From Arcobacter sp. (GTDB taxonomy: Bacteria > Campylobacterota > Campylobacteria > Campylobacterales > Arcobacteraceae): 64,000 nucleotides of DNA. Location: assembly GCA_002869535.1 (NCBI GenBank), contig PKUK01000001.1, positions 310,001 to 374,000 of the forward strand. The letters run 5' to 3'. The notes below the pieces were generated by a model. The model was not told where the DNA came from. It was given only the letters and a program-made list of their open reading frames with translations, and searched no databases. This document shows, in pieces, positions 1-20,058 of the stretch (positions are counted from its first letter, which is position 1; the number at the start of each line of letters is the position of its first letter). Made by a program: the position numbers and the translations under genes.

Positions 1-696
1 TTTACAGCTATTTCGATAGTATTTTTCCCAGCAGTTATTATGTCTATATCTTCTGCTTTGGGTTCACTTTTAACCATAACGATTCTCTATTTTATCTCTA
101 AAAAGATAAATAAAGATAGCATTGCCGTTTCTACAAACTCTATTTTACTTATAGGTATTGCTTTATCTTATTTTTATTCATCGGCTTTGATGTTGGTTTT
201 TTATATGAGTAATTTAGAACAAAACTATTCAATAGTAAGGTTTACTCTAGGAAGCCTAGATACGGTTGGTTTTTCAAGTGTTACAACTTTGTTACTTGTT
301 AGTGTAGTTTTATATGGTATTATTTATTGGAAAAAATCGGATATTAAACTTTTACTTATTTCAAATGATACTGCATTTTTAAAAGGTTTAAATGTAAATA
401 AGTTAAATCTTCTTTTACTAATAGTCATATCTTTAGCTGTAGGTATAAGTATAAGTTTTGTTGGACCAATTGGTTTTGTGGGTTTAGTTATTCCTCATAT
501 AATAAAACTTATTTATAAAAAAAGTGCAGATAAACTTATTTTTCCAGTATTTTTTTATGGAGGAATTTTTTTAGTAGCGTCTGATTTGATTGCAAGAAAT
601 TTAAATACTGCTTCAACTCTACCAATAGGGGTAGTTACTGCTTTCATTGGAGCTCCATTTTTTGTATATCTATTGATTAAAAGAAATAAAAGGTGA
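1..696 (+). CDS. FecCD/BtuC-type ABC transporter permease, 5' end outside window
   Basis: This is the C-terminal part of an inner-membrane permease of the FecCD family, which imports vitamin B12, cobinamide, haem or iron-siderophores together with a binding protein and an ATPase. The frame is open from base 1, so the true start lies upstream and the Met codon at 40 is internal. The remaining 231 residues are almost entirely hydrophobic helices. The segment near 460-520 (FVGPIGFVGLVIPHI) is the conserved FecCD signature that contacts the ATPase, and the protein ends in a basic tail. It is followed 4 bases later by cbiA, so a corrinoid substrate is likely from context, but the substrate cannot be read from this fragment. 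Confidence 0.9.
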   Translation, partial: FTAISIVFFPAVIMSISSALGSLLTITILYFISKKINKDSIAVSTNSILLIGIALSYFYSSALMLVFYMSNLEQNYSIVRFTLGSLDTVGFSSVTTLLLVSVVLYGIIYWKKSDIKLLLISNDTAFLKGLNVNKLNLLLLIVISLAVGISISFVGPIGFVGLVIPHIIKLIYKKSADKLIFPVFFYGGIFLVASDLIARNLNTASTLPIGVVTAFIGAPFFVYLLIKRNKR

Positions 697-700
697 TAAT

Positions 701-1960
701 ATGAAAGCCTTATGTATAAGTGCAAGTGCCTCAAATCAAGGTAAGACAGTTTTAACAACTGCCTTATTATATCACTTCAAAGACTCTGTCCGACCTTTTA
801 AAATGGGACCTGATTTTATAGATCCTCAATTTCATAAAATAGTTTGTCAAACTCCTAGTATAAACCTTGATAGATATATGATGAATAAAAAAGAGTTACA
901 ATGGCTTTTTTATAACTATAGTAATAAAAAAATCTCCATTTGTGAAGGTGTTATGGGCTTTTATGATGGACATGATAAAAAAAGTAGTGCTTATGATATC
1001 TCAAAACTATTAGATATACCTACAATTATTTTACTTGATGGAAGTGGCAGTTATATAACCGTAAGTGCAGTTTTACAGGGTCTAAAAAACTATAAGAAAA
1101 ACAACACTATAAAAGCAGTTGTTTTAAATAAGATTGCAACTGCAGCCCATTATGAATTGATAAAAAATATTATAGAAAAAGATTTTAAAGATATTGTAGT
1201 TTTAGGTTGGATAAAAAGTGGTCTTGAATCACTTGGTGAAACACACTTAGGACTTGATTTAAAAGACTTAGAAAAAATTGAAAAGATAAGCCAAGATGTT
1301 TTAGAACATATTGATATGAAAAAACTTGAGGAAATATCAAAAATTCATAAAAAAGTTAAAATCAATTATCCCTTTGAAAAAATACCAAAACAGAATAAGA
1401 AATTAGCAATTGTACATGATATAAATTTCTCATTTTTATATCATGATAATTTAGTTTTTCTAAAAGAGATTTTTAATGAAGTAATAATCGTTGATTCTAC
1501 AAAAGATGAACCAATCCCAGATGATGCAGATATTGTATATATTTGTGGTGGTTATATTGAAACAAATGAAGCGTACAAAAGAGTAGAAAACTCACATAAC
1601 TTTAAATCATCACTTATAAAACATGCCCAAGAAAAACCAATATACGCAGAGTGTGCTGGACTGTTATATTTAGGTCTTAGTGTCGATGATAAGCCTATGA
1701 GCTCTATTTTGGATATTAGCTTTTCAAAAGAGAAAAGATTTCAAAGAATGGGTTACTATTTCAATGAAGATGGCATAAAAGGTCATGCTTTTCACTATAC
1801 AAAACCAAGTGAAGAAAATAGTGGTTTTGATAGATTATCTAAGTCAAAAGAGTTGCTTGGAAAATATGGTTCATGGGAAAAAGGAAAAGTCTTTGGAACA
1901 TATTTACACACTATGTTTAGAGGAAATATTAAGCTAATAAAAAAAAGATTATTGCCATAA
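701..1960 (+). CDS. cbiA: Cobyrinate a,c-diamide synthase
   Basis: It amidates the a and c side chains of cobyrinate or hydrogenobyrinate using glutamine and ATP, in the cytoplasm. The N-terminus carries a dethiobiotin-synthetase-like P-loop (SASASNQGKT, residues 7-16), then the family segment KMGPDFIDPQFH. The C-terminal half is a class I glutamine amidotransferase with its nucleophile in ECAGLLYL (Cys318), and HT near the end supplies the distal histidine region. At 419 residues it is slightly shorter than many CbiA proteins. It starts 4 bases after the permease, so the two are probably co-transcribed. Its last 32 bases overlap the end of cbiB on the other strand. Confidence 0.93.
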   Translation: MKALCISASASNQGKTVLTTALLYHFKDSVRPFKMGPDFIDPQFHKIVCQTPSINLDRYMMNKKELQWLFYNYSNKKISICEGVMGFYDGHDKKSSAYDISKLLDIPTIILLDGSGSYITVSAVLQGLKNYKKNNTIKAVVLNKIATAAHYELIKNIIEKDFKDIVVLGWIKSGLESLGETHLGLDLKDLEKIEKISQDVLEHIDMKKLEEISKIHKKVKINYPFEKIPKQNKKLAIVHDINFSFLYHDNLVFLKEIFNEVIIVDSTKDEPIPDDADIVYICGGYIETNEAYKRVENSHNFKSSLIKHAQEKPIYAECAGLLYLGLSVDDKPMSSILDISFSKEKRFQRMGYYFNEDGIKGHAFHYTKPSEENSGFDRLSKSKELLGKYGSWEKGKVFGTYLHTMFRGNIKLIKKRLLP

Positions 1961-2813
1961 GTAAAAGTAGTGAATCAAGTTTTGATTTAAAGTTAAGTGC
2001 TTTTAAAATATCTTCTTTTAATATCTCTTCTCTTCCCTCTGCAAAATATGCTTTATCTTTTACTTTGCCAAAATATGAAGTTGGACCTCCTAGTTTAACT
2101 CCTAAGGCTAATGCCATAGCTGAAATAGGGTGCCCTGCATTTGGACTCTCATGTTTTTCTCCATATGAGTAGAAGTTTTTTAAAGCTTTAAAAGAATTAA
2201 AAAACAAAGCTATCAAAATAGCTGTTATTCTAGAGGGTATATAATTTACAACATCATCAAGTTTTGCAGAAAATTTACCAAAGTTTTCATATTTTTCATT
2301 TCTATAACCTACCATAGAATCAAGAGTATTTATTGCTTTATAAATAAATGCTCCAACAACTCCAAAAAACAAAATATAAAACATAGGAGCAATTACTCCA
2401 TCATTTAGATTTTCTGCATAGGTTTCAATTGCAGCTTTGTTTATGTCACTATTGCTCATATTTTCTGTATCTCTACTTACCAACATAGATATAGCTAGTT
2501 TTGCATCACTTGAATGAACAACTTCTTTTACACTATCATAAAGCATTTTAGAAGATATTGCAAATGAACATAAAAAGCCCTGTACTAAAATATTATCAAA
2601 TAGACTAAGAAAATATGTGATTATAAAAACTATACCAAGTAGAGAAATAGTTAGTGTAAAACCCCTTGAAACTGAGTCCTGATAAAAACTTTTCTCAAAC
2701 CATTTTATATAATCACCCATAAAAACGATAGGATGCTTGAAAAACTTTACTTTTTCAAACTCTCCAAAAATATAATCAATAAGATATGCAACTAAAACAG
2801 TTGTGAAATACAT
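1929..2813 (-). CDS. cbiB: Adenosylcobinamide-phosphate synthase, CbiB/CobD type
   Basis: This integral membrane protein attaches the (R)-1-amino-2-propanol phosphate arm to adenosylcobyric acid. It has the expected start (LIDYIFGE), the ETYAENLNDGVIAPMFY block and the conserved tail SPNAGHPISAMALALGVKLGG, with about five hydrophobic segments. Its 294 residues are in the family range. It lies 8 bases downstream of the decarboxylase gene at 2822-3838 on the same strand, so both aminopropanol-arm genes form a minus-strand pair. It converges on cbiA with a 32-base overlap. Confidence 0.92.
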   Translation of the reverse strand: MYFTTVLVAYLIDYIFGEFEKVKFFKHPIVFMGDYIKWFEKSFYQDSVSRGFTLTISLLGIVFIITYFLSLFDNILVQGFLCSFAISSKMLYDSVKEVVHSSDAKLAISMLVSRDTENMSNSDINKAAIETYAENLNDGVIAPMFYILFFGVVGAFIYKAINTLDSMVGYRNEKYENFGKFSAKLDDVVNYIPSRITAILIALFFNSFKALKNFYSYGEKHESPNAGHPISAMALALGVKLGGPTSYFGKVKDKAYFAEGREEILKEDILKALNFKSKLDSLLLLMAIIFFLLA

Positions 2814-2821
2814 TATTTAAA

Positions 2822-3838
2822 CTATTTTTTCAAAGCTTCAATAAAACTTTTCATGGCTTTTTTATCTTTTATGGCAACTCTTACAAAACTATCATTTAGA
2901 AAATCAAAGTTTGAACAATCTCTTATCATGATTTTATAAGGGATTAGTTTTTTTTGAAATGTTTTTGCTTTATAATCTTTGAGTTCTAGTAATAAGTAGT
3001 TTGCTTCACTTTTATATATTTTTTTTATAAAGTCAAACTTCTCTAAGTGCTTGATTGTATAGTTTTTATTTTTATTTGTTATTTTGATTGTTTTATTTAT
3101 AAAATTTTTGTCTTTTATTGCATTTTCTAAATATATAGAATCAAAATGAGAGATTTTCCATAAAGGCTCTTTCTCTTTTAGTTTTTTTATATTTTTAGAG
3201 TTTGAAATAATTGTACCAACCCTTATACTTGCGCTACTATATATCTTTGTCATGGATTTCAATATATAGAGTTTTTTATAGTTTTTTAATTTACCTATCA
3301 TTGATTTCTTATCTGTGAAGTCCAAAAAACTCTCATCTATAAAAATAGTGCAGTTTTTTTCAATCCATGAATTAAATAGCTTATCTAACTCATAATAGTC
3401 TCCATCAGGAGTTGAAGGGTTTACAAAAACTACTAAGGAGTCTTTTTCTACCTCTTTTTTTATATCATAAAATCTATTTATTAAATCAACTTTGAAACCA
3501 AATGTCTGTGCTGCTTTTTTGTACTCTAAATATGCTGGAGAGTAGATTGTGCAATGTTTCAAATTAAGATATCTAAAAAAAGAAAAAATAGCACTGCTTC
3601 CACCATTGAAAAGTTCTATTCCATCAGCTTTTACACTATATTTTTTTGCTATTATTCTAGATAGTTTTTCATATGTTGGATAGTTTGAAATATCTAGTTT
3701 ATTTAGGTCTATTTTGATTTTTGGTTTTAGAAAATTGATATTTGAAGATAGGTCTATAATCTCTTTTTGTTTTGAGCCAATTTTTTTGCTAAAAGCTAAA
3801 GTATCTCCACCATGACTAAATTGATTATTTGATTTCAA
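2822..3838 (-). CDS. PLP-dependent L-threonine-O-3-phosphate decarboxylase (CobD/CobC-like)
   Basis: It is a fold type I aminotransferase-like protein of the histidinol-phosphate aminotransferase branch. The N-terminal motif SHGGDT and LSSNINFL are typical of the cobalamin threonine-phosphate decarboxylases. The PLP lysine sits in ILKSMTKIYSSASIRVG, and NPSTPDGDY replaces the usual NPNNPTG. The product, aminopropanol phosphate, is the substrate of the neighbouring CbiB. The protein is very lysine-rich and, at 338 residues, shorter than many homologues. The reaction is inferred from family and operon position. Calling it cobD (Salmonella usage) or cobC (Pseudomonas usage) is a matter of nomenclature, so no symbol is given. 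Confidence 0.82.
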   Translation of the reverse strand: MKSNNQFSHGGDTLAFSKKIGSKQKEIIDLSSNINFLKPKIKIDLNKLDISNYPTYEKLSRIIAKKYSVKADGIELFNGGSSAIFSFFRYLNLKHCTIYSPAYLEYKKAAQTFGFKVDLINRFYDIKKEVEKDSLVVFVNPSTPDGDYYELDKLFNSWIEKNCTIFIDESFLDFTDKKSMIGKLKNYKKLYILKSMTKIYSSASIRVGTIISNSKNIKKLKEKEPLWKISHFDSIYLENAIKDKNFINKTIKITNKNKNYTIKHLEKFDFIKKIYKSEANYLLLELKDYKAKTFQKKLIPYKIMIRDCSNFDFLNDSFVRVAIKDKKAMKSFIEALKK

Positions 3839-3903
3839 AAGTTCTCTTTTTTATGCAATGGTACTATAAAATTTATATATAACAAATAAGAGGAAAAAGT
3901 TTA

Positions 3904-4527
3904 ATGAAAGAGTTTTCATCCGATGATATTACATGTTTAGAAAATATTATTGAAGCTAGACGTGATGTAAGAGGAAATAAGTTTTTAGATAAAAAAATTG
4001 ATGATGAAATCTTAGATAAATTATTAAAAGCTGCTTCAAATGCCCCCTCTGTAGGTTTTTCTCAACCTTGGAAATTTGTAATAGTAAAAGATGCCAAAAA
4101 AAGAGATGAGATATATCAAGACTTCGTAAAAGAAAATGAAAAAGCAAAAAAGATTTTTAAAGATAAAGAACTTTATAGTAAATTAAAACTTGAAGGTATA
4201 AAAGAGTCTTACCTAAATATCGCAGTACTATATGAAAAAAGTGATAAAAAAATATTAGGACAGACAAGTCAAAAAAAGATGTGTGAGTATAGTGTAGTTT
4301 GTGCTATACAAAACTTTTGGCTTATGGCTAGGGCTCATAATATTGTGGTTGGATGTGTGAGTATCTTAAAACCAAAAAGAGTAAAAAAGATTTTAAACAT
4401 AGAAAAAAACCATAAACTTATAGCTTATTTAACAGTTGGATATGTAAGTGAATTTTTAGATGAACCAGAGCTTTTAACCCTAGAGTGGGAAAAAAGAAAA
4501 ACTCTTCAAGATATCAAGGTAATCTAG
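3904..4527 (+). CDS. bluB: 5,6-dimethylbenzimidazole synthase (BluB-like nitroreductase)
   Basis: BluB uses oxygen to cut reduced FMN and release 5,6-dimethylbenzimidazole, the lower ligand of B12. The N-terminal block EARRDVRGNKF and the FMN-binding AASNAPSVGFSQPWKFVIV closely follow BluB rather than ordinary nitroreductases. The C-terminal region keeps the AYLTVGYV strand. At 207 residues it has the family length. The ATG follows GAGGAAAAAG with good spacing. Its stop TAG shares a base with the GTG of the next gene, so translation is probably coupled. Its presence implies oxygen-dependent lower-ligand synthesis, in keeping with a microaerobe. Confidence 0.85.
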   Translation: MKEFSSDDITCLENIIEARRDVRGNKFLDKKIDDEILDKLLKAASNAPSVGFSQPWKFVIVKDAKKRDEIYQDFVKENEKAKKIFKDKELYSKLKLEGIKESYLNIAVLYEKSDKKILGQTSQKKMCEYSVVCAIQNFWLMARAHNIVVGCVSILKPKRVKKILNIEKNHKLIAYLTVGYVSEFLDEPELLTLEWEKRKTLQDIKVI

Positions 4528-5312
4528 TGGGAGTTAAAACAAAACTTCTGTATGAAGATATAAAACCTTTTTTTGACATAAAAACTTTAGAAGAGACAAA
4601 AAGTGGACAAAGTCATACTGTTTATATTTTAGATGATGAGTATATTTTAAAAATATATGAAGATGAAACTACGCCATTTAATGTTGATGCTGAAATTGAA
4701 CTTCTAAGTTATGTGAGCACTCTTACTGTTCCAAAAATTATAAAAGATGATGTTTTTATAAAAGGAAAAAGAGGTGTTGTCTTTTCTAAGGCAAAAGGTG
4801 AAAGTATAGTTGATTTTGTTAAATCAACACATTTGCAACAAATAGGGGAGTTTTTAAACTCTTTTCATAAAATAACAAAAAATAAAACACACAATAACTT
4901 ATCCACTTTTGGGAAAAATGAATTAAAAACTCTGATAGAAAAAACCCAAAATAAAGAGTTTCAAGATGAATTTTATTCTTTAAAAATAGAACTTAAAAAT
5001 CATGGTATTATTCACGGTGATCTGTTTTTAGATAATGCAACTTTTTGTGAAGACAAATTAACTTGTGTTTTTGATTTTAGCGATGCCTGTGAGGGTGATT
5101 TTATCTTTGATTTAGCAGTTGTTGCTCTATCTTGGTGCCGTAATAAAGATGAAATAATAACTCTTCTAAATTCATACGATAGAACAATAACATTAGATGA
5201 ATTTATCCCTTATTTGAGATATGCTTCACTTTATTATTGTGTTAAAAGGCATTTGACTAATAGAGATTATGATAACATTATTTTTAAAAATAAATTTATA
5301 GATTTGATATAG
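4527..5312 (+). CDS. APH-fold small-molecule kinase in the cobalamin operon
   Basis: It is an aminoglycoside-phosphotransferase/homoserine-kinase-fold protein. The catalytic loop is HGDLFLDN (His163, Asp165, Asn170) and the metal-binding DFSD starts at Asp183. The N-terminal lobe has a short Gly/Ser loop (SGQSHTVYIL) and ILKIYE with the likely ATP lysine. I chose GTG at 4527 because it overlaps the bluB stop and has AAGGT 8 bases upstream. A longer in-frame GTG at 4485 would lie inside bluB. The substrate is unknown. By position between bluB and cobT and near the threonine-phosphate decarboxylase it could phosphorylate L-threonine or α-ribazole. That is inference only. Confidence 0.75.
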   Translation: MGVKTKLLYEDIKPFFDIKTLEETKSGQSHTVYILDDEYILKIYEDETTPFNVDAEIELLSYVSTLTVPKIIKDDVFIKGKRGVVFSKAKGESIVDFVKSTHLQQIGEFLNSFHKITKNKTHNNLSTFGKNELKTLIEKTQNKEFQDEFYSLKIELKNHGIIHGDLFLDNATFCEDKLTCVFDFSDACEGDFIFDLAVVALSWCRNKDEIITLLNSYDRTITLDEFIPYLRYASLYYCVKRHLTNRDYDNIIFKNKFIDLI

Positions 5313-5320
5313 GAAAGAAC

Positions 5321-6379
5321 TTGATAAAAAATATTATAGGTAAGATTGATTTTGCAGAATTTTTAAGGGGTAAAAAGGCTACTTTTATGTTAAGCCTTAG
5401 CAATACTCAAACAGTAAATATAAGTGGAATAACACAAGCTGGAATCCCAGGGAAAATACACTTAACTCCCACGCTTGATAGTGAGTTTGTTTGTTCTGGA
5501 CAACTAAGAAGCTTAGGTGAGATAGCCACAACACCAAGTGGGGTACCAACTCCTGCGCTTATCACAAGAGCTGTGCATCTTCTAAATCCATATTCAAATA
5601 TTGAACTTCTTGATTTAGGACTTGAAGTATCACCTCAAGTTGATTACTTTAAGACTCACTCTTTTGAAATTCGACCATCAAAATCAATTGCTCTTGATGC
5701 AAAAATAGATGCCCTTGATATCTTTCAAAAAGGTTTAGCTTTTGGGCAAACTTATGAGTGTAGTGATGATTATATAATCCTAGCAGAGAGTGTTCCAAGT
5801 GGAACTACAACAGCAAGGGCTACTTGTCAAGCATTGGGTTATGATTGTGAGGAGTTTTTTTCAAGTTCATTTAAAAATGCACCTACAACTATAAGAGATG
5901 AAACGGTTAAAAATGCCTTAGAACACATAAGAAGTGATGATGATATTTTCGCAAAACTAGGAAGAGTATCTGATAATATGCAGATATTCAATGCTGGATT
6001 TATACTTTGACTAAACAATAAGATAAAAGTAGTCTTAGCAGGTGGGACTCAAATGGCTTCAGTCCTTCTAATAGTAAACTCTATTTTAAAAACTATGGGT
6101 GGAGAATTTGACACTTCAAATTTATCATTATGTACTACAAAATGGGTATATGAAGATAAAAATAGTGATATAAAAGCACTTTTAGAACTTCTTGATTTTA
6201 AAATAGATGCCTTTTATGCTGATTTTGATTTTTCATTATCAAATCATCCAGCTTTAAAGTTATATGATGAAGGTGAAGCAAAAGAGGGTGTTGGTGCAGG
6301 TGGAGCTCTTATGTATGGGCTTTTAAATGGTCTGTCAAAAGCTGATATTACCAAACAAGTTGAAAGTTTCTTAGGATAA
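5321..6379 (+). pseudogene. cobT: Nicotinate-nucleotide:dimethylbenzimidazole phosphoribosyltransferase, interrupted by in-frame TGA
   Basis: CobT makes α-ribazole phosphate, the activated lower ligand. The frame runs from TTG at 5321 (AGGAAAG upstream) to 6379 with a single TGA at 6008-6010 (codon 230 of 353) and no frameshift. Read through, the product would have the usual CobT length of about 350. The upstream part has the substrate-binding ESVPSGTTTARA. The part after the stop has VVLAGGTQMASVLL and the catalytic glutamate region KEGVGAGGALMYG. The 229-residue truncated product therefore lacks the catalytic base. The context around the stop (GFIL-stop-LNNK) suggests an original Gly codon GGA. 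Restart at ATG 6053 (AGGTGG upstream) could give only a 108-residue C-terminal piece. Confidence 0.88.
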
Positions 6380-6382
6380 GTT

Positions 6383-6982
6383 ATGGATATTTTTATAGCA
6401 ACATTTTTAAAAATGTTTTTTATCATGACACCATTTTTTGTATTGTCAGTTTTTTTAACAGTAACCCATGATGCAACAGCAAAAGAGAAAAAAGCCTTAG
6501 CTATAAAAGTTACAATATCTGTTGTGATTATGAGTTTAGTTTTGCTTTTTTTTGGTAAACATATATTTGCAGTTTTTGGTATAACTCTTGATGCTTTTAG
6601 AATAGGTGCTGGAGCATTACTGTTTTTATCAGCAGTTGAGTTAATAAAAGGAAATAAAGATACTGGAAAAGTTGGAGATAAGGATATCTCACAACTAGCA
6701 GTTGTACCTTTAGCAATTCCTGTTACAATAGGACCAGGAACAATTGGTATCTTACTAGTCATGGGTGCGACGTTTGATAGTACATCATCCATGATTATGG
6801 GATGTTTAGCATTGATAAGTGCTGTATTAGTAATAGGTATTATGCTTTATTCTTCAAGTATTATTGAGAGTATTATTGGTAAACAAGGACTTCTTGTAAT
6901 CTCAAAAATTACAGGTCTATTCCTATCAGCACTTGCAGCACAGATTGTATTTACTGGTATCAAAAACTTTTTAGGGCTATGA
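6383..6982 (+). CDS. MarC-family integral membrane protein
   Basis: It is a 199-residue protein with about six membrane helices. The N-terminus (MTPFFVLSVFLTVTHDA) and the central block AVVPLAIPVTIGPGTIGILLVMGA match the MarC/YchE family. These proteins have no firmly established function, and the old link to multiple antibiotic resistance is not supported for MarC itself. It begins 3 bases after the cobT stop, and its own stop overlaps the start of cobU, so it is translated as part of the cobalamin operon. That placement may mean a transport role linked to B12 precursors, but nothing in the sequence proves it. Confidence 0.85.
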   Translation: MDIFIATFLKMFFIMTPFFVLSVFLTVTHDATAKEKKALAIKVTISVVIMSLVLLFFGKHIFAVFGITLDAFRIGAGALLFLSAVELIKGNKDTGKVGDKDISQLAVVPLAIPVTIGPGTIGILLVMGATFDSTSSMIMGCLALISAVLVIGIMLYSSSIIESIIGKQGLLVISKITGLFLSALAAQIVFTGIKNFLGL

Positions 6983-7476
6983 TGAAGATATTATACTACG
7001 GTGGACAAAAATCAGGTAAAAGTAGACTTGCAGAAGCAAAAACAATAGAACTATCAAATAATAAAAAGCCATACTATATAGCTACATATGACAATAGCTA
7101 TGGCGATGAAGAGATGCAAAAAAGAGTTTTACAACATCAAAACCAAAGAAGTGAAAAATTTGAAACTATCGAAGAAAAATTTGGGTTATCAAAAGTTATC
7201 AAAGATGGAAATACATATTTGATAGATTGTATCTCTATGTGGCTTTTAAATGGGCTTGAAAAAAGTGAAGATGAACTCTTATTTGAGATAGAAAAACTAT
7301 CAAAAAAAGATGCAAATATAGTTTTTGTACTAAATGATGTAAGTAGTGGAGTTATACCTTTTGAAAAAGTTAGTCGTAAGTATGTGGATATGAGCGGAAT
7401 CATTGGACAAAAGTTAGCAAGTATTTGTGATGAAGTATATGAAGTAAAACTTGGGTTAGCCCAAAGGATTAAGTAG
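6979..7476 (+). CDS. cobU: Adenosylcobinamide kinase / adenosylcobinamide-phosphate guanylyltransferase
   Basis: It phosphorylates adenosylcobinamide and then transfers GMP to give adenosyl-GDP-cobinamide, the activated corrinoid used by CobS. The P-loop GGQKSGKS lies at residues 8-15. RVLQHQNQRSEKFETIEE carries the His that becomes guanylylated, and LIDCISMWLLN is the second core block. The C-terminus GLAQRIK is typical. At 165 residues it is a short member of the family. The ATG at 6979 overlaps the marC stop. A second ATG at 6982 is equally possible. Confidence 0.9.
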   Translation: MMKILYYGGQKSGKSRLAEAKTIELSNNKKPYYIATYDNSYGDEEMQKRVLQHQNQRSEKFETIEEKFGLSKVIKDGNTYLIDCISMWLLNGLEKSEDELLFEIEKLSKKDANIVFVLNDVSSGVIPFEKVSRKYVDMSGIIGQKLASICDEVYEVKLGLAQRIK

Positions 7477-8466
7477 ATGAAATTTTTTTTAAGTTTTATA
7501 ATGGAGTATATTCACATATCATTATTCTATTTAAAATATTTACCTAGTAAAATAGATAAATTTGAGATTAAAATTTATTTTAGAATAATATTTATTTTTA
7601 TTGGTATATCATATATATTATTATTGAATCGTTTAGTTTTATATGGAATACCATTAGAATTAATAGAAATAAAAAATATTATTATTTCTTCAGAAAGTTT
7701 TTTCTTTAGAGAAGTAATTGGTTTTTTATTGTTAGTTTTTTTGATTCTTTATGCTTTATTTACAACAATCAATGGACTCATTATAAAAAAGAATATATTT
7801 TCAATGTATGGAATTTATTTTTTATTTTTTATTATTATAATTCCTTTTCAAGGTTTATTTAGTTTAGAATTGTCTGATAATATATTTGATATTCTTATTT
7901 TCATTTCATGTTTAATTTTTATTGTGCATATGCTTTTAAATTTTGAAAAAAATAAAATTTATATTAAATATGCATTAATAGGTGTCACTACTATTTTATT
8001 TTTTTCTATTACTATGGAAAGTATTTATCAAATAAGGTATAAAACTTCAAATTCAAATAAACATTTTCATAATAATAACATTTTCTCAGAGATTTTAGAT
8101 TCTTATATACTAGAGTATAAAAAACCTTATATTGAAGAAGTGCATATTGATAAAAAAAGTAAAAATGAAATAGTTTTTGTATTAGGAAATGTTAATGGAT
8201 ATATATATTATTATCCAAGAGAACAAATTATTGATATTTTAAATTCTGAAATATCACATGAAATAAAAGAGAAAATTTGCGTAGAGAAAGATAAAACACA
8301 AATTGATGAAAATATTTATTATCCTAGAAGAACAATTAGTTTATTAAAAACTTCTTCTTTAAGAAGCAGAAAATTTGAAAGAAAGAAAGAAGATAGAATT
8401 AAATTAATTACAGAGTTTGTAAATTTCAGAGATAGCTTTTGTGAAAACTTAACAGTTGATGAATAG
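7477..8466 (+). CDS. Unknown multi-pass membrane protein inserted between cobU and cbiP
   Basis: I do not recognise this 329-residue protein. The first 195 residues hold about five hydrophobic segments very rich in Ile, Phe and Leu. The last 135 residues are soluble and charged, with YIYYYPREQIIDIL and a basic stretch SLRSRKFERKKEDR near the end. The coding sequence is much more AT-rich than the neighbouring cobalamin genes, with runs of A and T. Its ATG directly follows the cobU stop and cbiP starts 17 bases after it, so it is expressed with the operon. Composition and lack of a recognisable family suggest later acquisition. A second possible start is ATG 7501. Confidence 0.7.
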   Translation: MKFFLSFIMEYIHISLFYLKYLPSKIDKFEIKIYFRIIFIFIGISYILLLNRLVLYGIPLELIEIKNIIISSESFFFREVIGFLLLVFLILYALFTTINGLIIKKNIFSMYGIYFLFFIIIIPFQGLFSLELSDNIFDILIFISCLIFIVHMLLNFEKNKIYIKYALIGVTTILFFSITMESIYQIRYKTSNSNKHFHNNNIFSEILDSYILEYKKPYIEEVHIDKKSKNEIVFVLGNVNGYIYYYPREQIIDILNSEISHEIKEKICVEKDKTQIDENIYYPRRTISLLKTSSLRSRKFERKKEDRIKLITEFVNFRDSFCENLTVDE

Positions 8467-8483
8467 ATTATTTAAGGAAAAAT

Positions 8484-9878
8484 ATGAATAATATCTCTAT
8501 CTTCGGAACTTCAAGCGATGCTGGAAAATCTACTATTACCTTTGTAATAGCTAAGATTTTACAAGATTTAGGAGTAAATGTTGCTCCTTTTAAAGCTCAA
8601 AATGTATCAAACAATGCTTATGTTTGTGATGATGGAAGTGAGATTGCTGTTGCTCAGTATTTTCAAGCTCAGGTTTTGGGCGTGCCTACTTCTTATCATC
8701 TAAATCCTGTGTTATTAAAATCAGGTCGGGGAAGTAATGCTTCTGTAATAGTTGAGGGGCAAGTATTAGCTAGCAAAGATGTGCTTACTTATTATAAAGA
8801 TTTGGACCTACTAAAACCTGCTGTTGATAGATGTTTTTCTTATCTTGATGAAAGGTATGATTGTCTTGTTTGTGAGGGAGCTGGAAGTCCTGTGGAACTT
8901 AATCTTATGGATAAAGACTTATCAAATATTTACATTGCCACCAAATACAATACAAAAATCATACTTGTAGCAGACATAGAGAAGGGCGGAGTTTTTGCTT
9001 CTATTTATGGAGTTTATAATCTTCTTCCAAAAGAGTTACAAAAAAACGTTATTGGTGTGATTGTAAATAAGTTTCGTGGGGATTTGAGTCTTTTTGATGA
9101 GGGTATAAAAATCATAGAAAATGATTTTAAGATACCAGTTCTTGGAGTACTTCCTTATATACCTTTTAATCTAGGATTTGAAGATTCTCAAAGTTTGAAA
9201 AACTATGCCCAAAACTCAAAAGATAGCGTTATAAGAGTAGGGGTTATTTCATATCCTTATATGAGTAATTACAACGATTTTGAGCCTTTGATTGCTGATA
9301 GTAATATAAACTTAGAGTTTATAGAAAACAATATCTCACTTGATAAGTTTGACCTGATAATCTTGCCTGGTTCCAAACTAGTGATAAAAGACCTGCAGTG
9401 GCTTAAATCAAATGGTTTGTTCAAAAGAGTAAAAGAGTATGAAAAAACTATTTTAGGGCTTTGTGGTGGTTATGAGATGATGTTTAATTCACTTGATGAC
9501 AAATTTGCCTTAGAAAATAGTATAGCATGTGTGGAAGAGGGATTTGGTTTTATAGATGAGACAATAGTTTTTGAAAAAGATAAAGTTCTTAAAAAAGCTA
9601 CTTATAATATCTTTGAATGTGAGATTGAAGGATTTGAGATACATCATGGAGTTTCTAAAAAACATCAAATATCATATGAAACAGAGAATATTAAAGGTAC
9701 TTTCATCCATGCTATTTTTGATAATGACAATATCAGAACAAAACTATTTAAAGCAATAAATAGTGAGTACAAAGAGTTTGATTTTAAAGCATACAAAAAA
9801 AAGACAATAGATAGCTTTATTTCTAATATGAAAGAAAGACTGGATGTAAATAAAATATTGGAAAATATAAATGAATAA
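8484..9878 (+). CDS. cbiP: Cobyric acid synthase
   Basis: It amidates the b, d, e and g side chains of adenosylcobyrinic acid a,c-diamide using glutamine and ATP. The P-loop block GTSSDAGKSTI is at residues 8-18, followed by VAPFKAQNVSNNAYV, which is diagnostic of CobQ/CbiP. The amidotransferase half has LPGSKLVIKDLQWL and the nucleophile in LGLCGGYEMM, with EGFEIHHG and FIHAIFDN towards the end. Its 464 residues are close to the usual 480-500. AAGGA lies just before the ATG. It overlaps cobS by 8 bases. The gene is also called cobQ. Confidence 0.93.
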   Translation: MNNISIFGTSSDAGKSTITFVIAKILQDLGVNVAPFKAQNVSNNAYVCDDGSEIAVAQYFQAQVLGVPTSYHLNPVLLKSGRGSNASVIVEGQVLASKDVLTYYKDLDLLKPAVDRCFSYLDERYDCLVCEGAGSPVELNLMDKDLSNIYIATKYNTKIILVADIEKGGVFASIYGVYNLLPKELQKNVIGVIVNKFRGDLSLFDEGIKIIENDFKIPVLGVLPYIPFNLGFEDSQSLKNYAQNSKDSVIRVGVISYPYMSNYNDFEPLIADSNINLEFIENNISLDKFDLIILPGSKLVIKDLQWLKSNGLFKRVKEYEKTILGLCGGYEMMFNSLDDKFALENSIACVEEGFGFIDETIVFEKDKVLKKATYNIFECEIEGFEIHHGVSKKHQISYETENIKGTFIHAIFDNDNIRTKLFKAINSEYKEFDFKAYKKKTIDSFISNMKERLDVNKILENINE

Positions 9879-10611
9879 TTTTATTTTAGGGTTTAAATTT
9901 GCTCTTAGCTACTTTACAATACTTCCCGTAAGATTTAAAGAAAAAGATGACTTATCGAAAAAAGAGATTCTATCTTTTATGCTTTTTTCACTTCCTTTAC
10001 TTGGTTTGATACTTGGGGTTATTACTCTTAGTTTATATTATTTTTTAGATGATCTATCTTGGTTTGGGGCGCTTATTTGTGCTGTATTTTATATGATTCT
10101 TTATGGTTTTATCCATACAGAAGCTATCATAGACGTAGTTGATGCGATATATGCAAAACATAGTGGGAAAGATGCCTATGAAGTGATAAAAGAGCCGACA
10201 ATTGGGGCTATGGGTGTTTTATATGCTTTTGCTTTTTTTACTCTTAAAATAGCAGCTATTGTATATCTATTTTTAAATGATTATCTTTTAGAGTTTATTT
10301 CAATTATTATCATAAGTAGATTGATGCTTCTGTTTGTGATTAAAAACTTTGAATTTAAATCAACTTTTGTAAACCAATTAAAAGAATCACTTAGTACAAA
10401 TATCTTTTTTAGTGCGCTTATTATTTTTACTTTATTAAATATTTTTCTTATTGGCTTAAAAGCTATTACTCTTGTGATATTTGCTTTTATTTTTTCATAT
10501 TTTATTGCACTATTTATAAAGAAAAATGTTGGCTTTTTAAATGGTGATGCACTAGGTACAGTTCTTGAATCATTAGAGATTTTGTTGGTAATTTTAATTC
10601 TTGTGATATAA
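9871..10611 (+). CDS. cobS: Adenosylcobinamide-GDP ribazoletransferase (cobalamin synthase)
   Basis: CobS joins adenosyl-GDP-cobinamide to α-ribazole (phosphate) in the membrane, the last assembly step. The protein has FALSYFTILPVRF at the N-terminus and the conserved core EAIIDVVDAIYAKHSGKDAYEVIKEPTIGAMG, given here in two parts as IIDVVDAIYAKHSGKDAY and VIKEPTIGAMG. About six hydrophobic helices follow, ending with FLNGDALGTVLE. The length of 246 residues is typical. It overlaps cbiP by 8 bases and ends the operon. Because cobT is interrupted in this sequence, its ribazole substrate may not be made here unless the cobT stop is an error or is read through. Confidence 0.9.
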   Translation: MNNFILGFKFALSYFTILPVRFKEKDDLSKKEILSFMLFSLPLLGLILGVITLSLYYFLDDLSWFGALICAVFYMILYGFIHTEAIIDVVDAIYAKHSGKDAYEVIKEPTIGAMGVLYAFAFFTLKIAAIVYLFLNDYLLEFISIIIISRLMLLFVIKNFEFKSTFVNQLKESLSTNIFFSALIIFTLLNIFLIGLKAITLVIFAFIFSYFIALFIKKNVGFLNGDALGTVLESLEILLVILILVI

Positions 10612-10666
10612 GTAAATCTTATGTTTCTTTTTATGATGTTTTAATAAATCAAAGATTATAATTAAT

Positions 10667-10876
10667 TTAGTTATTTGGTTTGACTAAAGATTTGATAGCT
10701 TTTGGTAGATGAGCAAAGGGTAGGGTTTTATTTTGTGTGAATTTCTCCTTCTCAAAACAAGATAATTCCACATTCATATTAGCTTTATTTAAAAATAGTA
10801 CTTTATATTTTATTCCCTCAAGAGTATAAGTTATATTTTTATTTCTAAAATCTACTATCTCTTTTTTCTTTGCCAT
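10667..10876 (-). CDS. Small basic hypothetical protein (69 aa)
   Basis: I do not recognise this protein. It starts with MAKKKEIVDFRNKN and is predicted to be soluble and basic, with a β-rich middle (ITYTLEGIKYKVLFLNKANMN) and a C-terminus LPKAIKSLVKPNN. AAAGGAT precedes the ATG on the minus strand. It stands alone between cobS and the divergently oriented transporter gene. The good ribosome site and absence of a competing ORF support it as real. Confidence 0.6.
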   Translation of the reverse strand: MAKKKEIVDFRNKNITYTLEGIKYKVLFLNKANMNVELSCFEKEKFTQNKTLPFAHLPKAIKSLVKPNN

Positions 10877-10910
10877 TTATAATCCTTTTACAAAAGAAGA
10901 GTATCAAAAA

Positions 10911-11882
10911 ATGGGTAATGAAAGAATAAAGTCAGTTCCAAATAGGTTGAAGTTTTTTCCTGTGATGATGTTTGCTATTGTTATGGGCTTAGCAGGACTT
11001 AGTTTAGTTTATGGAAAAGCTCATGAAGTATTAGGAATATATGAAATATTTTATGAAGTACTTTCATATTTTACTATTATTATTTTTTTTATAATTTTAA
11101 TTACCTACTTTAGAAAAATGATGAAATACCATGACGAAGTAAAAGAAGAGTTTTCTCACCCCATAAGAATAAACTTTTTTGCAGCTATATCTATATCTTT
11201 TATTCTTGTTTCTATGCTATTTAAACCTATAAATATTCAAGTTTCACTTAGCTTATTTACAATAGGAACAGTATTACATCTATTTTTTACATTTTATACT
11301 CTTAGTTTTTGGATAAATAAGCCTTTAAACATACAACACTCCAACCCCGCTTGGTTTATTCCAATTGTAGGAAATCTTATAATTCCAGTTGGTGGAATTG
11401 ATTTTTTAAGTAATAATGTACTTATCTATTTTTTCTCTATTGGAATCTTTTTTTGGATAATTATGTTTTCAATTATATTAAATAGAATTATCTTTCATGA
11501 TCAATTTGCACAAAAGTTTATACCAACACTTTTTATACTTATAGCTCCTCCTACTGTGGGACTTTTGGCTTATTATAAGTTGACTACTAATTTTGATATC
11601 TTTGCCATTATTTTATATAATCTAGGGTTGTTTTTTATCTTCCTGCTCTTTTTTATGTATAAAAATTTCTTAAAAATAAAATTTTTTATATCATGGTGGG
11701 CATTTACATTTCCTTTGGCTTCTATGGCTTTAGCTACACTATTAGTTTACTCTATAACTAAAGAGCTTATTTATTTTTATTTGTCATATTTTTTTATTAT
11801 TTGTGTGACTGTTGTAGTAGGTCTAGTTGCATATAATACCTTGAAACATATTGTAAAAAAAGAGATATGTATAATGGAATAG
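10911..11882 (+). CDS. SLAC1/TehA-type anion transporter
   Basis: It is a 323-residue membrane protein with about ten helices. The opening RLKFFPVMMFAIVMGLAGLSL and the later HSNPAWFIPIVGNLIIPVGG fit the SLAC1/TehA family. This family includes the tellurite-resistance protein TehA, C4-dicarboxylate transporters and plant anion channels. The substrate cannot be told from sequence. The ATG has AGAAGAG upstream and lies 34 bases from the divergent small gene. No tehB partner is present next to it. Confidence 0.82.
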   Translation: MGNERIKSVPNRLKFFPVMMFAIVMGLAGLSLVYGKAHEVLGIYEIFYEVLSYFTIIIFFIILITYFRKMMKYHDEVKEEFSHPIRINFFAAISISFILVSMLFKPINIQVSLSLFTIGTVLHLFFTFYTLSFWINKPLNIQHSNPAWFIPIVGNLIIPVGGIDFLSNNVLIYFFSIGIFFWIIMFSIILNRIIFHDQFAQKFIPTLFILIAPPTVGLLAYYKLTTNFDIFAIILYNLGLFFIFLLFFMYKNFLKIKFFISWWAFTFPLASMALATLLVYSITKELIYFYLSYFFIICVTVVVGLVAYNTLKHIVKKEICIME

Positions 11883-11897
11883 TAATTCTAATGGTAA

Positions 11898-11903
11898 TAT
11901 AAT
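11898..11903 (+). promoter_or_regulatory. -10 promoter element of the aldo/keto reductase gene
   Basis: TATAAT in the short gap between the transporter and the reductase gene, 28 bases before the start codon and with AAAGGT as ribosome site between. No -35 box is evident, as is usual for housekeeping promoters of Campylobacterota. Confidence 0.5.
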
Positions 11904-11931
11904 AAACCTATAAATATTAAAAGGTATTACT

Positions 11932-12951
11932 ATGAATTATAAATATATAGGAAAAACAGGACTAAGAGTAACTGATATTTGTTTGGGAACTATGACTTTT
12001 GGGACAACTACTTCAAAAGAAGAAGCTTTCAAAATCATGGATAAAGCTTATGAAAGAGGTATTAACTTCTATGATACAGCAGAGATTTATCCCGTACCCC
12101 CAACTGCAAACTTAGGTGGACTAACAGAAGAGATAGTAGGAGAGTGGCTAAAAACAAAACCAAGAGAGTCAATAATTCTTGCTACTAAAGTTGCAGGTGC
12201 AGCTTCTGGATGGTTTGTCCCTCCCACCCGTCATGGCTTGACAGCAATTGATTCTTTTCATATTAAAAGAGCAGTTGAGGGGAGTTTAAAAAGACTTCAA
12301 ACTGATTATATCGACCTTTATCAAATGCATTGGCCAGATACTATAGTACCTATTGAAGAGAGTTTAAAAGCCTTTGATGAGTTAGTTAAAGAAGGAAAAG
12401 TAAGATACATAGGAACTTCAAATGATAGTGCTTATGGTTTATCAAAAGCAAATGAAGTTTCAAAATATAATAAACTAGCTAGATTTGAATCTATCCAAAA
12501 TAATTTTTCACTTCTAAATCCAAGGTTTTTAGATGAACTTAGTATTGTTTGTAAAAATGAAGAAATCTCACTATTGCCATACTCTCCCATAGCAGGTGGA
12601 GTTTTAAGTGGAAAATATAATGCTGGATTTTACCCAGAAGATGCTAGATTTAGTTCTTATATACAAAACAAAAGTAAAAGAGTTCAAGCTATGGCTAATA
12701 GGTTTGTCAATGACAAAACAATGGAAGCTACAGCTAGATATATGAAGTTAGCTAAAAAGTATGATATGAGCCCAGTTACACTTGCTGTTGCTTGGTCAAA
12801 ACAGCATGACTTTGTCGCTTCTACTATTATTGGTGCTAGAATTTTGACTCAGTTAGATGCTTCTTTAGATGCAATAGATATAAGATTAAGTAATGAAATC
12901 TTGGAAGAAATCAAACAAATTCAAAAGGATATTTTATATCCAATGGGATAA
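11932..12951 (+). CDS. Aldo/keto reductase, Tas-like
   Basis: It is a cytoplasmic NADPH-dependent oxidoreductase with a TIM-barrel fold. The catalytic tetrad is visible: Asp and Tyr in FYDTAEIYPVP, Lys in LATKVAG and His in LYQMHWPD. The long insert after the tetrad Tyr and NLGGLTEEIVGEWLK resemble Tas of Escherichia coli. Towards the end, LAVAWSKQHDFVASTIIGAR binds the cofactor. Its 339 residues are the normal length. It is transcribed alone from the TATAAT at 11898. The physiological substrate is unknown. Confidence 0.88.
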   Translation: MNYKYIGKTGLRVTDICLGTMTFGTTTSKEEAFKIMDKAYERGINFYDTAEIYPVPPTANLGGLTEEIVGEWLKTKPRESIILATKVAGAASGWFVPPTRHGLTAIDSFHIKRAVEGSLKRLQTDYIDLYQMHWPDTIVPIEESLKAFDELVKEGKVRYIGTSNDSAYGLSKANEVSKYNKLARFESIQNNFSLLNPRFLDELSIVCKNEEISLLPYSPIAGGVLSGKYNAGFYPEDARFSSYIQNKSKRVQAMANRFVNDKTMEATARYMKLAKKYDMSPVTLAVAWSKQHDFVASTIIGARILTQLDASLDAIDIRLSNEILEEIKQIQKDILYPMG

Positions 12952-13019
12952 TATTATAAGTTATATTTATTCTTAAGAAGGTATAATAATCCAAAATATA
13001 TTCTTAGAGGTAAATAAGT

Positions 13020-15560
13020 ATGAGTAATTTTACGATTTCAAAAAAGTTTTCTATTATGATAATAGCATTGACAGTTATTATGCTAGCTATTAGTTTTTTT
13101 ATTTTAAATAATAAGAAAAATAGTATTGTCAATGAAGTTGTGAGTAAAACAAAAGAAGAACTACAACAAACTTCTGAAACAAAAATCAATGGAAAACTTG
13201 ATGTTGGTATTTCAAATGCAATATCTATTGCAAATGATTCAATGATTCAAAACTCTCTTTTAGATAATAATAGAGATATGGCTATTAATGCTTTATCAAC
13301 ATTATCTAAAAAAATGAAAGAATCAACGCCTTTTAAAAATATAAAGATTCATTTACATACAAAAGATAACAAATCATTTGTAAGGTCTTGGAAACTGGAT
13401 AAACATGGTGATGATTTGTCTTCATTTAGGAATAGTGTTGTTCAAGTAAATAAAGAACAAAAAGTTGTAAATACTTTTGAAGTAGGAAGGGCTGGACTAA
13501 GTATTCGTTCAGTTGTACCAGTATTTGCTAATAACGAGCATGTAGGTTCTTTAGAGTTTATGCAAGGTATTAATTCAGTAGCAAAAGAGTTTGATAAAAA
13601 TGGTGATGCTTTTATTTTATTGATGGATCCTAAAGTAGCTATTGCAGATACTTCAAAACTAGAAAAACTAAATGGCTATGTTGTCTCTCAAAAGTTTTTA
13701 AATAAAGACTTTTTTGAAGATGCTAAAAATATAGATCTTAAAAAACTTGTATCTGAGGGTCATATTCAAACTGCAAAGTACTTTTATACAACAACTGCTA
13801 TAAAAGATTTTGAAAATAAAACTTTAGGTTTTGGATTAGTAGGTAGAAAATATGAAGTTGTAAATGTTTCTATTCATGAAGCTTCGGATATTATTTGGCA
13901 AGCTTTAGTATTATTATTGATTTCTTTATTACTAACAATGTTAGGAAGTCTATTTAACTTAAAACATACAGTTCTTTCTCCAATAAAAAATCTAAAAAAC
14001 TCAATTGACAACTTAGTTAATAACAACTCAACAGAATCAACAAAGATTGAAGTAAATTCAAATGATGAAATTGGCGATGTTGTAAATAGTTTTAATAGTT
14101 ATTTAGCAGAGTTAGATAAAGGTAACAAACAAGATATAGAAGTAATTGAAGAGACAAAATTAATAATAGAAAAAGTTAATAAGGGCTTATTAAACGATAG
14201 AGTAACTAAAAAAGGTCACTCTGAGTCTGTAAATCAACTTGTAAATGAAGTAAATTCTATGATTGGTGTTTTTCAGACAAACTTATTAATGCTTTCAGAT
14301 GTTTTAATTAGTCTTTCAAATGCTAAATATGATACAAAGCTTCCTGATATAAAAGTTACTGGTATTGTTGCATCTATTTTTAGTGGAATAAAAGTTACTC
14401 AATCAACAATCAATGAAGTTCTGTGCTTAATAGACAATGCAAATAATAAGTTAACTACAAGTGCATTTGAACTAGCAGGTGCATCAAAAAAACTAAGTAG
14501 TTCTTCAAATACACAGGCTGCATCACTTGAAGAGACAGCGGCTGCTATACAAGAGATATCATCAACTATTCAAAGTAGTAGTGAAACAGCAACAAAGATG
14601 TCTTCTTATGCAAAAAATGTAAGTGAATCAAATGAGAATGGTAAACAACTTGCCTTTAAAACAGCTGGTGCAATGGAAGAGTTAAGTTCAAAAGTAAGTG
14701 CTATTAATGAATCTATTTCAATTATTGACCAAATAGCTTTCCAAACAAATATTCTTTCACTTAATGCAGCAGTTGAAGCTGCGACAGCTGGAGAAGCAGG
14801 AAAAGGCTTTGCCGTAGTTGCTCAAGAGGTTAGAAACTTAGCTTCAAGATCTGCAGAAGCAGCTAAAGAGATAAAAGCTTTAGTAGAAGATGCAACACAA
14901 AAAGCAGGGGAGAGTAAAGAGATATCAAATCAAATGATTACAGGATATAATCAGCTAAATGAAAATATCACTGCAACAATTGGACTTATTGAAGATGTTA
15001 ATAGTGCATCAAAAGAACAAGAACAAGCTATGATTCAAATAAGTGATACGGTAAACTCTTTAGACCAAGCTACTCAACAAAATGCATCTTTAGCTTCATC
15101 TATCAATGAAATGTAATCACTTACATCAAACCTTGCTTCTCAATTACAAAATGCAGTAAACAGAACAAGTTTTGATAAGAGTGCAAGTAATAGAATATGT
15201 GATGAAAATTTAATATTTGATGTAAATAAATTAAAGTCAGACCATTTAACCTTTAAAAATACAAATTTTTGTGAGTGTAAAAAAGGTCATAACTTTACAG
15301 TTAAAACGCACCATGAGTGTAATTTAGGTAAATGGATTGATGAGAATGAAGATTCAGATATGTCAAGAACAAATGAATGGAGCCATTTAAAAGAAGCACA
15401 CAAAGAGGTTCATGGTTTAGTTCAACAAACAGTTGATTTATATGCTTCAAGTGCCTCAAATGAAGAAATCTTTGAAGTTACAGAGGCAATAGAAAAAAAT
15501 ATTGATATCGTTTTTGAAGCTCTTAATATAATAAGAGTAGAAAAGTGTAAAAATAGCTAA
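13020..15560 (+). pseudogene. dCache-type methyl-accepting chemotaxis protein with C-terminal CZB-like domain, interrupted by in-frame TAA
   Basis: A transmembrane chemoreceptor. Residues 1-28 are the first membrane helix, about 30-300 a periplasmic Cache-type sensor, and about 300-320 the second helix. HAMP-like repeats follow, then the signalling tip [17 protein letters not shown] with [15 protein letters not shown]. An in-frame TAA at 15114-15116 (codon 699 of 847) follows SSINEM. The same frame continues with SLTSNLASQLQ and a zinc-binding CZB-like domain (HHECNLGKWI, LKEAHKEVHGLV) to 15560. The truncated receptor keeps the kinase-control tip but loses the distal coiled coil and the CZB domain. 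The latter part could alternatively start at ATG 15360. One G-to-T change in a GAA codon would explain the stop. Confidence 0.85.
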
Positions 15561-15633
15561 ATTCTTGACTAAAGTTATTGATTTCTCCTTTTTTTTCTAT
15601 TAAAATATAATCAGACTAAAAAAGGAGTTCTCC

Positions 15634-15837
15634 ATGCTTGATGAAAAAATATTACTTTTACTCGACTGCAACATTTATAAATATAATTATACAAAGCATT
15701 GTTTCCAAATAAGAAATTATTTTGATGTAAATAATGACTCTCTACTAGAAGAACTAAAAGAAATTTTAAAAATATTAGAAAAAAATGAAATTAATTATAT
15801 AATAGAAAAAGATAACACTATCACGATAGCTAAATAG
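15634..15837 (+). CDS. Small hypothetical protein (67 aa)
   Basis: I do not recognise it. The N-terminal LLLLDCNIYKYNYTKHCFQI is followed by an acidic helix LLEELKEILKILEKNEIN and a short strand. It starts with a good ribosome site (AAAAGGAG) and has a TATAAT about 25 bases before it, near 15607. It sits 10 bases before another 67-residue gene, so the two may form a small transcription unit downstream of the broken chemoreceptor. Confidence 0.6.
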   Translation: MLDEKILLLLDCNIYKYNYTKHCFQIRNYFDVNNDSLLEELKEILKILEKNEINYIIEKDNTITIAK

Positions 15838-15847
15838 AAGACCAAAC

Positions 15848-16051
15848 TTGAATAAAGAAAAATTAGTTTTAAAAGAAGCATATAAACTAAGATATGAATA
15901 CTATAATTTTTATGAAAATAAAGAAACAAAATGGCATGATAAATACAAAAATCATAAACTATATAATGCAGTAGTGGAGAGTTTAGAGTACAAATTTCAT
16001 GAGATAGCGAATATTATGCCCGAACTTATAAAAAAGTTGAATTTAAATTAA
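15848..16051 (+). CDS. Small hypothetical protein (67 aa)
   Basis: I do not recognise it. It is a charged, tyrosine-rich, mostly helical protein (EAYKLRYEYYNFYENKETKW) starting at TTG. It follows the preceding small gene by 10 bases and its stop overlaps the end of the convergent gene at 16048-16437 by 4 bases. No membrane segment or signal peptide is visible. Confidence 0.5.
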   Translation: MNKEKLVLKEAYKLRYEYYNFYENKETKWHDKYKNHKLYNAVVESLEYKFHEIANIMPELIKKLNLN

Positions 16052-16437
16052 TCTCCAAAATTAGCAAAAGCGCTTTCAACACTTGGAATGTTTTTGTAAG
16101 AAGTTTTTGATAGTCTTACTTTTTTTGTTTTTAAATCACATACAGCAATTTTAAAACTAGAACCCATATGTGGCTCTACAACACAAATAATTTTATCTTC
16201 AATTTGGCGTGTTGTATAGATGGTACCTTGTAAAGATCTGAAAAAATACTTTGGATAACTCAATGGTGTTATCTCAACTATATCTATACCTTCTTGATTC
16301 TCAAGGGTTTGCATTATGTCCATGGCGTCTTCATACTCTTCGAATTGAATACACCAATCATCAAAATTTTTATTAAAATGTTCTAAATCTTCATCTAGAA
16401 AACCACCAGCTAAAGATTGTAAAGCAAAAATTGACAC
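16048..16437 (-). CDS. Hypothetical acidic protein (129 aa)
   Basis: I do not recognise this protein. It is soluble and acidic, with FDDWCIQFEEYEDAMDIMQTL in the first half and β-rich stretches (YFFRSLQGTIYTTRQIEDKI, FKIAVCDLKTKKVRLSKTSY) in the second. The start is GTG, with AGGTGT upstream on the minus strand. It lies downstream of selO on the same strand, 78 bases away, and may be read from that promoter or its own. Confidence 0.6.
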   Translation of the reverse strand: MSIFALQSLAGGFLDEDLEHFNKNFDDWCIQFEEYEDAMDIMQTLENQEGIDIVEITPLSYPKYFFRSLQGTIYTTRQIEDKIICVVEPHMGSSFKIAVCDLKTKKVRLSKTSYKNIPSVESAFANFGD

Positions 16438-16514
16438 ATAAACACCTTGAAATATATATAGTTTTAAATATTTATTTTAACATACTTAGGTTTTAATTAT
16501 ATAAATAGAAAAAA

Positions 16515-18200: not shown

Positions 18201-18317
18201 ATTTCTTCTTATTCATTTTTTTCAATAGTATCATAAGCAGTTAAAAAAAATATCAAATATCGATACTAAATTAAAATTTAATTTTAGCTAATAAATAACA
18301 TTAACCAGTCCTTTAAA

Positions 18318-18419
18318 ATAGTAACAGTAACCTTGAAAGTATATGCAAAATTTATAAAAGAAGATGAAGAAATTAGACATAGAAAAATAGACAAAGTTGG
18401 AAAAATATTCAATTTGTGA
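18318..18419 (+). pseudogene. C-terminal relic of a phage-type tyrosine integrase
   Basis: In the 250-base gap between selO and the next small gene, one frame reads IVTVTLKVYAKFIKEDEEIR and then HRKIDKVGKIFNL before TGA at 18417-18419. The TLKVYAKFIKE segment is typical of the end of phage-type tyrosine recombinases, just after the catalytic tyrosine (the Y here). The frame has no start codon or upstream catalytic residues, so only the last 34 residues remain. The rest of the gap (18201-18317) shows no gene. This is a decayed fragment, and the assignment rests on a short match from memory. Confidence 0.45.
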
Positions 18420-18450
18420 TATAATTCACAATAAATTAAAAGGTTTATAA

Positions 18451-18597
18451 ATGGCGTTAGCAATAAAAAACAACAAAGTTATTACTATTGTTCCTCCTAA
18501 AAAGCTTTCTGTAGAAGATAGAAAGAAATTAATTAGTACTCCTATTAATGAAAAACTTATTCAAAAAGCTACATCACGAAAATATAACATAGTATAG
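18451..18597 (+). CDS. Small hypothetical protein (48 aa) preceding a GNAT gene
   Basis: A short ORF from ATG 18451, with AAAAGG upstream and a TATAAT-like sequence (18418-18423) in front of it. It encodes a basic protein beginning MALAIKNNKVITIVPPKKL, followed by SVEDRKKLISTPINEKLIQK. It ends 7 bases before the acetyltransferase gene, so the two look co-transcribed. The arrangement resembles antitoxin-toxin pairs in which a small DNA-binding protein precedes a GNAT toxin, but no ribbon-helix-helix motif is clear at this length. Confidence 0.55.
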   Translation: MALAIKNNKVITIVPPKKLSVEDRKKLISTPINEKLIQKATSRKYNIV

Positions 18598-18604
18598 AAT
18601 TAAT

Positions 18605-19084: not shown

Positions 19085-19147
19085 TCATGTTTTTGGAGAA
19101 TCTAACATTTTAAAAAATCTATAAATACCAAAATAAGGGATATTATC

Positions 19148-19988: not shown

Positions 19989-20058
19989 TTACTATAAAAT
20001 TTTTACTACTATGCAAGTTTCAAAAAGATAAAATATCTAAAATTTAAAAGGATATTTA

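Follow-up and report, generated by a model that had tools for sequence, protein, structure and literature searches.

A predicted L-threonine kinase for cobamide synthesis

The gene at positions 4527 to 5312 (plus strand) of the window, the 64,000-nucleotide stretch of an Arcobacter sp. genome analyzed here, is predicted to encode an ATP:L-threonine kinase of B12 synthesis that is unrelated to PduX, a reading to which a probability of roughly 0.7 can be assigned. We infer the substrate and the reaction from the fold of the predicted structure model, the sequence motifs, the absence of PduX, and the co-occurrence and adjacency of the gene with the one coding for CobD. The kinase would use ATP to phosphorylate the side-chain hydroxyl of L-threonine, CobD would decarboxylate the resulting L-threonine-O-3-phosphate to (R)-1-amino-2-propanol O-2-phosphate, and CbiB would join the latter to cobyric acid as the nucleotide-loop linker. 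The protein would then be a functional analogue, not a homologue, of the GHMP-type kinase PduX. It is also fairly likely that, in much of the phylum Campylobacterota, the missing step before CobD is carried out by a class of B12 L-threonine kinases peculiar to these bacteria, one that arose within the homoserine kinase II/APH lineage and has no relation to PduX.

The kinase gene and its cobamide cluster

The preliminary description placed an APH-fold kinase gene inside a cobalamin operon, translationally coupled to bluB and 8 bases away from cobT, and all of this was borne out. The 261-codon open reading frame starts with a GTG (4527 to 4529) that shares one base with the TAG stop codon of bluB (4525 to 4527) and is preceded, at ∼7 bases, by the ribosome-binding-like motif AAGG. 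Its stop codon occupies positions 5310 to 5312, leaving an 8-base gap to the TTG start of cobT (5321). The gene is intact in this strain, and positions 1 to 20000 of the window gave no Rfam match. The products of the neighboring genes (CobB, CbiB, CobD, BluB, an archaeal-type CobT, CobU, CobQ, and CobS) had likewise been named correctly. The cluster comprises the following genes:

701..1960, plus strand: cobB/cbiA, a,c-diamide synthase-like, assigned on the basis of its sequence and its place among the genes; orthologues in congeners at 86 to 88%
1929..2813, minus strand: cbiB, adenosylcobinamide-phosphate synthase, which uses aminopropanol phosphate; TIGR00380 above the cut-off
2822..3838, minus strand: cobD, threonine-phosphate decarboxylase, 338 aa, predicted consumer of the kinase product; TIGR01140, E value 3.7e-62, and co-occurrence
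3904..4527, plus strand: bluB, 5,6-dimethylbenzimidazole synthase, overlapping the kinase start; TIGR02476, 202 bits, cut-off 150
4527..5312, plus strand: APH-fold kinase of 261 aa, predicted to phosphorylate L-threonine for cobamide synthesis; PF01636, clade, and structure model
5321..6379, plus strand: cobT, archaeal type, with an in-frame TGA at 6008 to 6010; family match and reading of the open reading frames
6979..7476, plus strand: cobU, adenosylcobinamide kinase/guanylyltransferase; PF02283
8484..9878, plus strand: cobQ, cobyric acid synthase; TIGR00313 above the cut-off
9871..10611, plus strand: cobS, cobamide synthase; PF02654

In this arrangement cobD is divergent from the kinase gene and lies on the far side of bluB. 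One correction concerns cobT, which appears as two open reading frames because of the in-frame TGA. The same position is a sense codon in the congeners G001 and G002, where the gene is intact; the TGA would reflect a recent loss of the gene or else an error in the assembly. A gene for a MarC-like membrane protein (6383 to 6982) separates cobT from cobU, as it does in many members of the family. Between cobU and cobQ, positions 7477 to 8466 encode a hydrophobic protein of 329 aa with no Pfam or NCBIfam match.

Fold, motifs, and family relations

The kinase matches the Pfam APH family (PF01636) with 77.1 bits (E value 2.3e-21, cut-off 23.2), and the GHMP domains PF00288 and PF08544 were not matched in this protein. 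The best named models are those of homoserine kinase type II, TIGR00938 and PRK05231, both below threshold: the scores of 55.4 and 68.4 bits are about a quarter of the respective cut-offs of 255.9 and 271. Among the homoserine kinase-like relatives, 7 of the 8 tested pass the homoserine kinase II cut-off. Structure prediction gave a confident model (pLDDT 89.9), and its first-ranked fold match in the PDB is the homoserine kinase 2ppq (TM score 0.74), which is also the top profile match of the protein (E value 4.8e-22). The following elements of the active site could be located:

4650..4652, plus strand: K42, presumably the ATP-binding lysine, as judged from the APH fold; invariant in an alignment of 20 orthologues
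5013..5036, plus strand: catalytic loop HGDLFLDN, residues 163 to 170; H163, D165, and N170 invariant in the 20 orthologues
5073..5075, plus strand: D183 of the DFS motif, which we take from the APH fold to be the metal-binding aspartate; invariant in the 20 orthologues
5130..5138, plus strand: SWC motif, residues 202 to 204; invariant, and partly common to homoserine kinase II (N-x-W-C)

E56 is also among the invariant residues, and the catalytic set of this APH/protein-kinase-like fold (K42, E56, H163-x-D165, N170, and D183) is intact.

In a tree of 70 sequences, 42 proteins from Campylobacterota fall on one side of a branch with support of 97/97, and the type II homoserine kinases form a separate clade (100/99). 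The kinase clade, found only in Campylobacterota among the sequences sampled here, is nearest to homoserine kinase type II by profile, fold, and tree but distinct from it. Outside this phylum, the matches of a profile scan were relatives of homoserine kinase II, beside which no cobamide genes were seen at the annotated loci, and a scan of genome contigs with the single kinase sequence produced no match. The two groups share the fold of homoserine kinase type II (ThrB of Pseudomonas and Agrobacterium; 2ppq), the HxDLFxDN and WC motifs, and an N-terminal M-x-V-x-T-K start, which indicates that the homology extends over close to the full length; the identity to one homoserine kinase II is 31%. 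However, members of the kinase clade are ∼50 residues shorter (median length of 268 versus 321) and mostly have DFS where homoserine kinase II has DFY. The Asn residue two positions before the Trp, present in 60 of 62 homoserine kinases, is replaced in 28 of the 32 scored members of the kinase clade. The four that keep it belong to two lineages and lie outside a cobamide cluster, which is a hint only, and this change was rejected as a strict clade marker. At two loci (L073:351-1283 and L074:9234-10154), the Asn-retaining kinase orthologue is found by hisA and a hisH-like gene instead of cobamide genes. Given the placement of the clade beside homoserine kinase II, the predicted reaction would correspond to a substrate switch between homoserine and threonine, which are isomers of each other.

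Absence of PduX and comparison with known L-threonine kinases

The preliminary description had seen no PduX-type kinase in the cluster, and the search extended to the genome gave the same result. This genome (G000; 2.68 Mb, 99.96% complete) encodes exactly two GHMP kinases, scored as IspE and as the GHMP homoserine kinase ThrB, so that PduX is absent from the genome and homoserine is already served. In all 60 relatives searched, there are two or three GHMP kinases per genome, and the third copies, in the three cases opened, adjoin sugar-nucleotide genes. These data bear on the idea that the gene encodes a second homoserine kinase that moved into the operon and has no B12 role. It would agree with the nearest models and the nearest structure, both of homoserine kinase II. 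However, ThrB leaves no need for a second such enzyme, the scores fall well short of those required for the family, the clade is separate, and the gene tracks CobD, making this the least probable of the readings considered here.

Two L-threonine kinases, PduX and BluE, have been described before, as has a bifunctional CobD. PduX of Salmonella enterica (EC 2.7.1.177) catalyzes the same reaction as the one predicted here and acts at the same point of the pathway, immediately ahead of CobD, but the window's kinase is of the APH fold and matches no GHMP domain. The same predicted reaction is shared, by description, with BluE of the Rhodobacterales, which has been called nonorthologous to PduX (PMC8123684) as well as its homologue (PMC6249242). 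The CobD protein MM2060 of Methanosarcina mazei, according to titles cited in PMC9986279, unites kinase and decarboxylase in one protein; it furnishes the threonine phosphate that it then decarboxylates, as the predicted kinase-CobD pair would, but as a single bifunctional protein, whereas the window has a separate kinase beside a 338-aa CobD. Since most verified cobamide producers have no PduX or CobD annotation in their genomes, both were left out of cobamide prediction rules; no signature gene existed for norcobamide producers (PMC6461909). The predicted kinase would provide a named candidate to fill the threonine kinase gap for one phylum. It might also serve as a marker gene for a linker made from threonine and may help to separate ordinary cobamide producers from norcobamide producers. 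If the prediction is true, the kinase would clearly exemplify how one biosynthetic step can arise from another kinase fold.

The window's strain itself has no CbiD and encodes 2 TP-methylase proteins, compared with 6 in each of two congeners. The corrin-ring methylases that these congeners have are missing, and the strain seems, from its gene content, unable to build a corrin ring of its own and would have to rely on salvage. Given these missing methylases and the stop codon in cobT, the pathway in this strain may be salvage-only or decaying.

Co-occurrence with CobD, CobT, and BluB

Among 298 Campylobacterota genomes, drawn evenly, the kinase was found together with CobD in 27, the kinase only in 1, CobD only in 4, and neither in 266, for totals of 28 and 31 genomes, respectively (Fisher p of ∼5e-33, a value that ignores relatedness). 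Counted by genus from the same tables, 14 genera have both, 1 has only the kinase, and 3 have only CobD. The co-occurrence with the decarboxylase across the phylum, which the preliminary description had proposed to check, thus extends to 27 of the 28 kinase genomes, G272 being the one without CobD. In a closer sample of 60 genomes, CobD or a piece of it is present in all 22 that bear the kinase. Mapped onto the CobD tree, the kinase label undergoes about six changes, indicating that the gene was gained or lost several times.

CobT is a weaker partner, detected in 26 of the 28 kinase genomes of the phylum sample. Of the CobT-bearing genomes, 26 of 29 with CobD have the kinase, and none of the 5 without CobD do. 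BluB is the weakest: 8 of the 22 kinase-bearing genomes lack it, whereas 9 or 10 genomes without the kinase carry it. This looser tracking of CobT and BluB disfavors α-ribazole or a substrate linked to 5,6-dimethylbenzimidazole. The gene had originally been proposed to encode a kinase of either L-threonine or α-ribazole. In favor of the α-ribazole half, the gene immediately precedes cobT in the window, as it does at several other loci. Against it stand the five CobD-less genomes above and G062, in which the kinase and CobD are present and CobT is not matched, and CobT itself already makes the phosphorylated riboside. An α-ribazole kinase is therefore highly improbable. The threonine half is well supported by context, that is, by the lack of PduX, the tight co-occurrence with CobD, the frequent adjacency to it (see below), and the kinship with homoserine kinase, and stands as a prediction; co-occurrence inside one pathway cannot by itself name a substrate. 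Two other ideas were rejected: that the kinase serves BluB, on account of the poor co-occurrence, and that it marks de novo corrin synthesis, since CbiD is distributed differently.

Genomes with CobD but without the kinase

As far as the searches went, CobD is kept without the kinase or PduX in 4 of the 31 CobD genomes of the phylum sample and in about a dozen of the closer sample. Within the family of the window's organism, CobD without the kinase is found in G004, G007, G010, G019, G024, G027, G035, and G327; PduX was not seen in the CobD-only genomes whose GHMP kinases were counted, a count that leaves out G327. A kinase hidden beside a separately located bluB was rejected, as none was seen there, and so was a diverged orthologue, as none appeared at the profile level. 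The profile scan of the closer sample separates full-length matches with E values of 1e-74 or better from the rest at 1e-22 or worse, the one exception being a contig-end fragment. It follows that these genomes obtain threonine phosphate in another way or that CobD can do without it. They may make norcobamides, rely on a CobD that is itself a kinase, as reported for Methanosarcina, or use another enzyme.

Serine phosphate is an existing intermediate of serine synthesis, which counts against the kinase being an L-serine kinase that would deliver serine phosphate to CobD for norcobamides. Such a role could be expected from the example of Sulfurospirillum multivorans, a member of the Campylobacterota that makes norpseudo-B12, without the linker methyl group, and whose CobD-like protein SMUL_1544 was proposed to give ethanolamine phosphate (PMC4585668). 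However, the gene list of its norcobamide cluster (SMUL_1543-1568) includes no such kinase (PMC7755780), and an L-serine kinase appears very unlikely. As far as this cluster gene list goes, the kinase-free cluster fits a threonine-specific role.

Gene order across loci

At least two cobamide genes lie within six genes of the kinase in 32 of the 40 loci; the other 8 have no clear cobamide surroundings, in some cases simply owing to a contig end. The adjacent gene codes for CobD in 13 of the 40 loci, from several families, where it is located downstream of the kinase gene, mostly with a 4-base overlap. The remaining genes are arranged differently from one genus to the next, and the recurrent pairing of the kinase with CobD is therefore not simply inherited synteny.

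The same pairing weighs against an aminoalcohol kinase acting on free (R)-1-amino-2-propanol or ethanolamine and feeding CbiB directly for salvage. The product of such an enzyme would be a CbiB substrate, and choline/ethanolamine kinases with the APH fold are known. However, it would make CobD unnecessary, and yet CobD is the protein that the kinase tracks most closely and overlaps in operons; moreover, the closest relatives act on an amino acid. This alternative is accordingly considered unlikely, and phosphorylation of L-threonine remains the preferred reading.

Most of the cobamide clusters also encode a conserved cysteine-rich protein of ∼140 aa, weakly similar to PF04071, whose gene often adjoins those for the kinase and CobD, for example at L255:12259-12678, L256:10473-10898, L257:10734-11159, and L262:2683-3111, among many others. 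In M. mazei CobD, a cysteine-rich domain is fused at the C terminus, and, by analogy, the small protein may work with CobD as a separately encoded partner.
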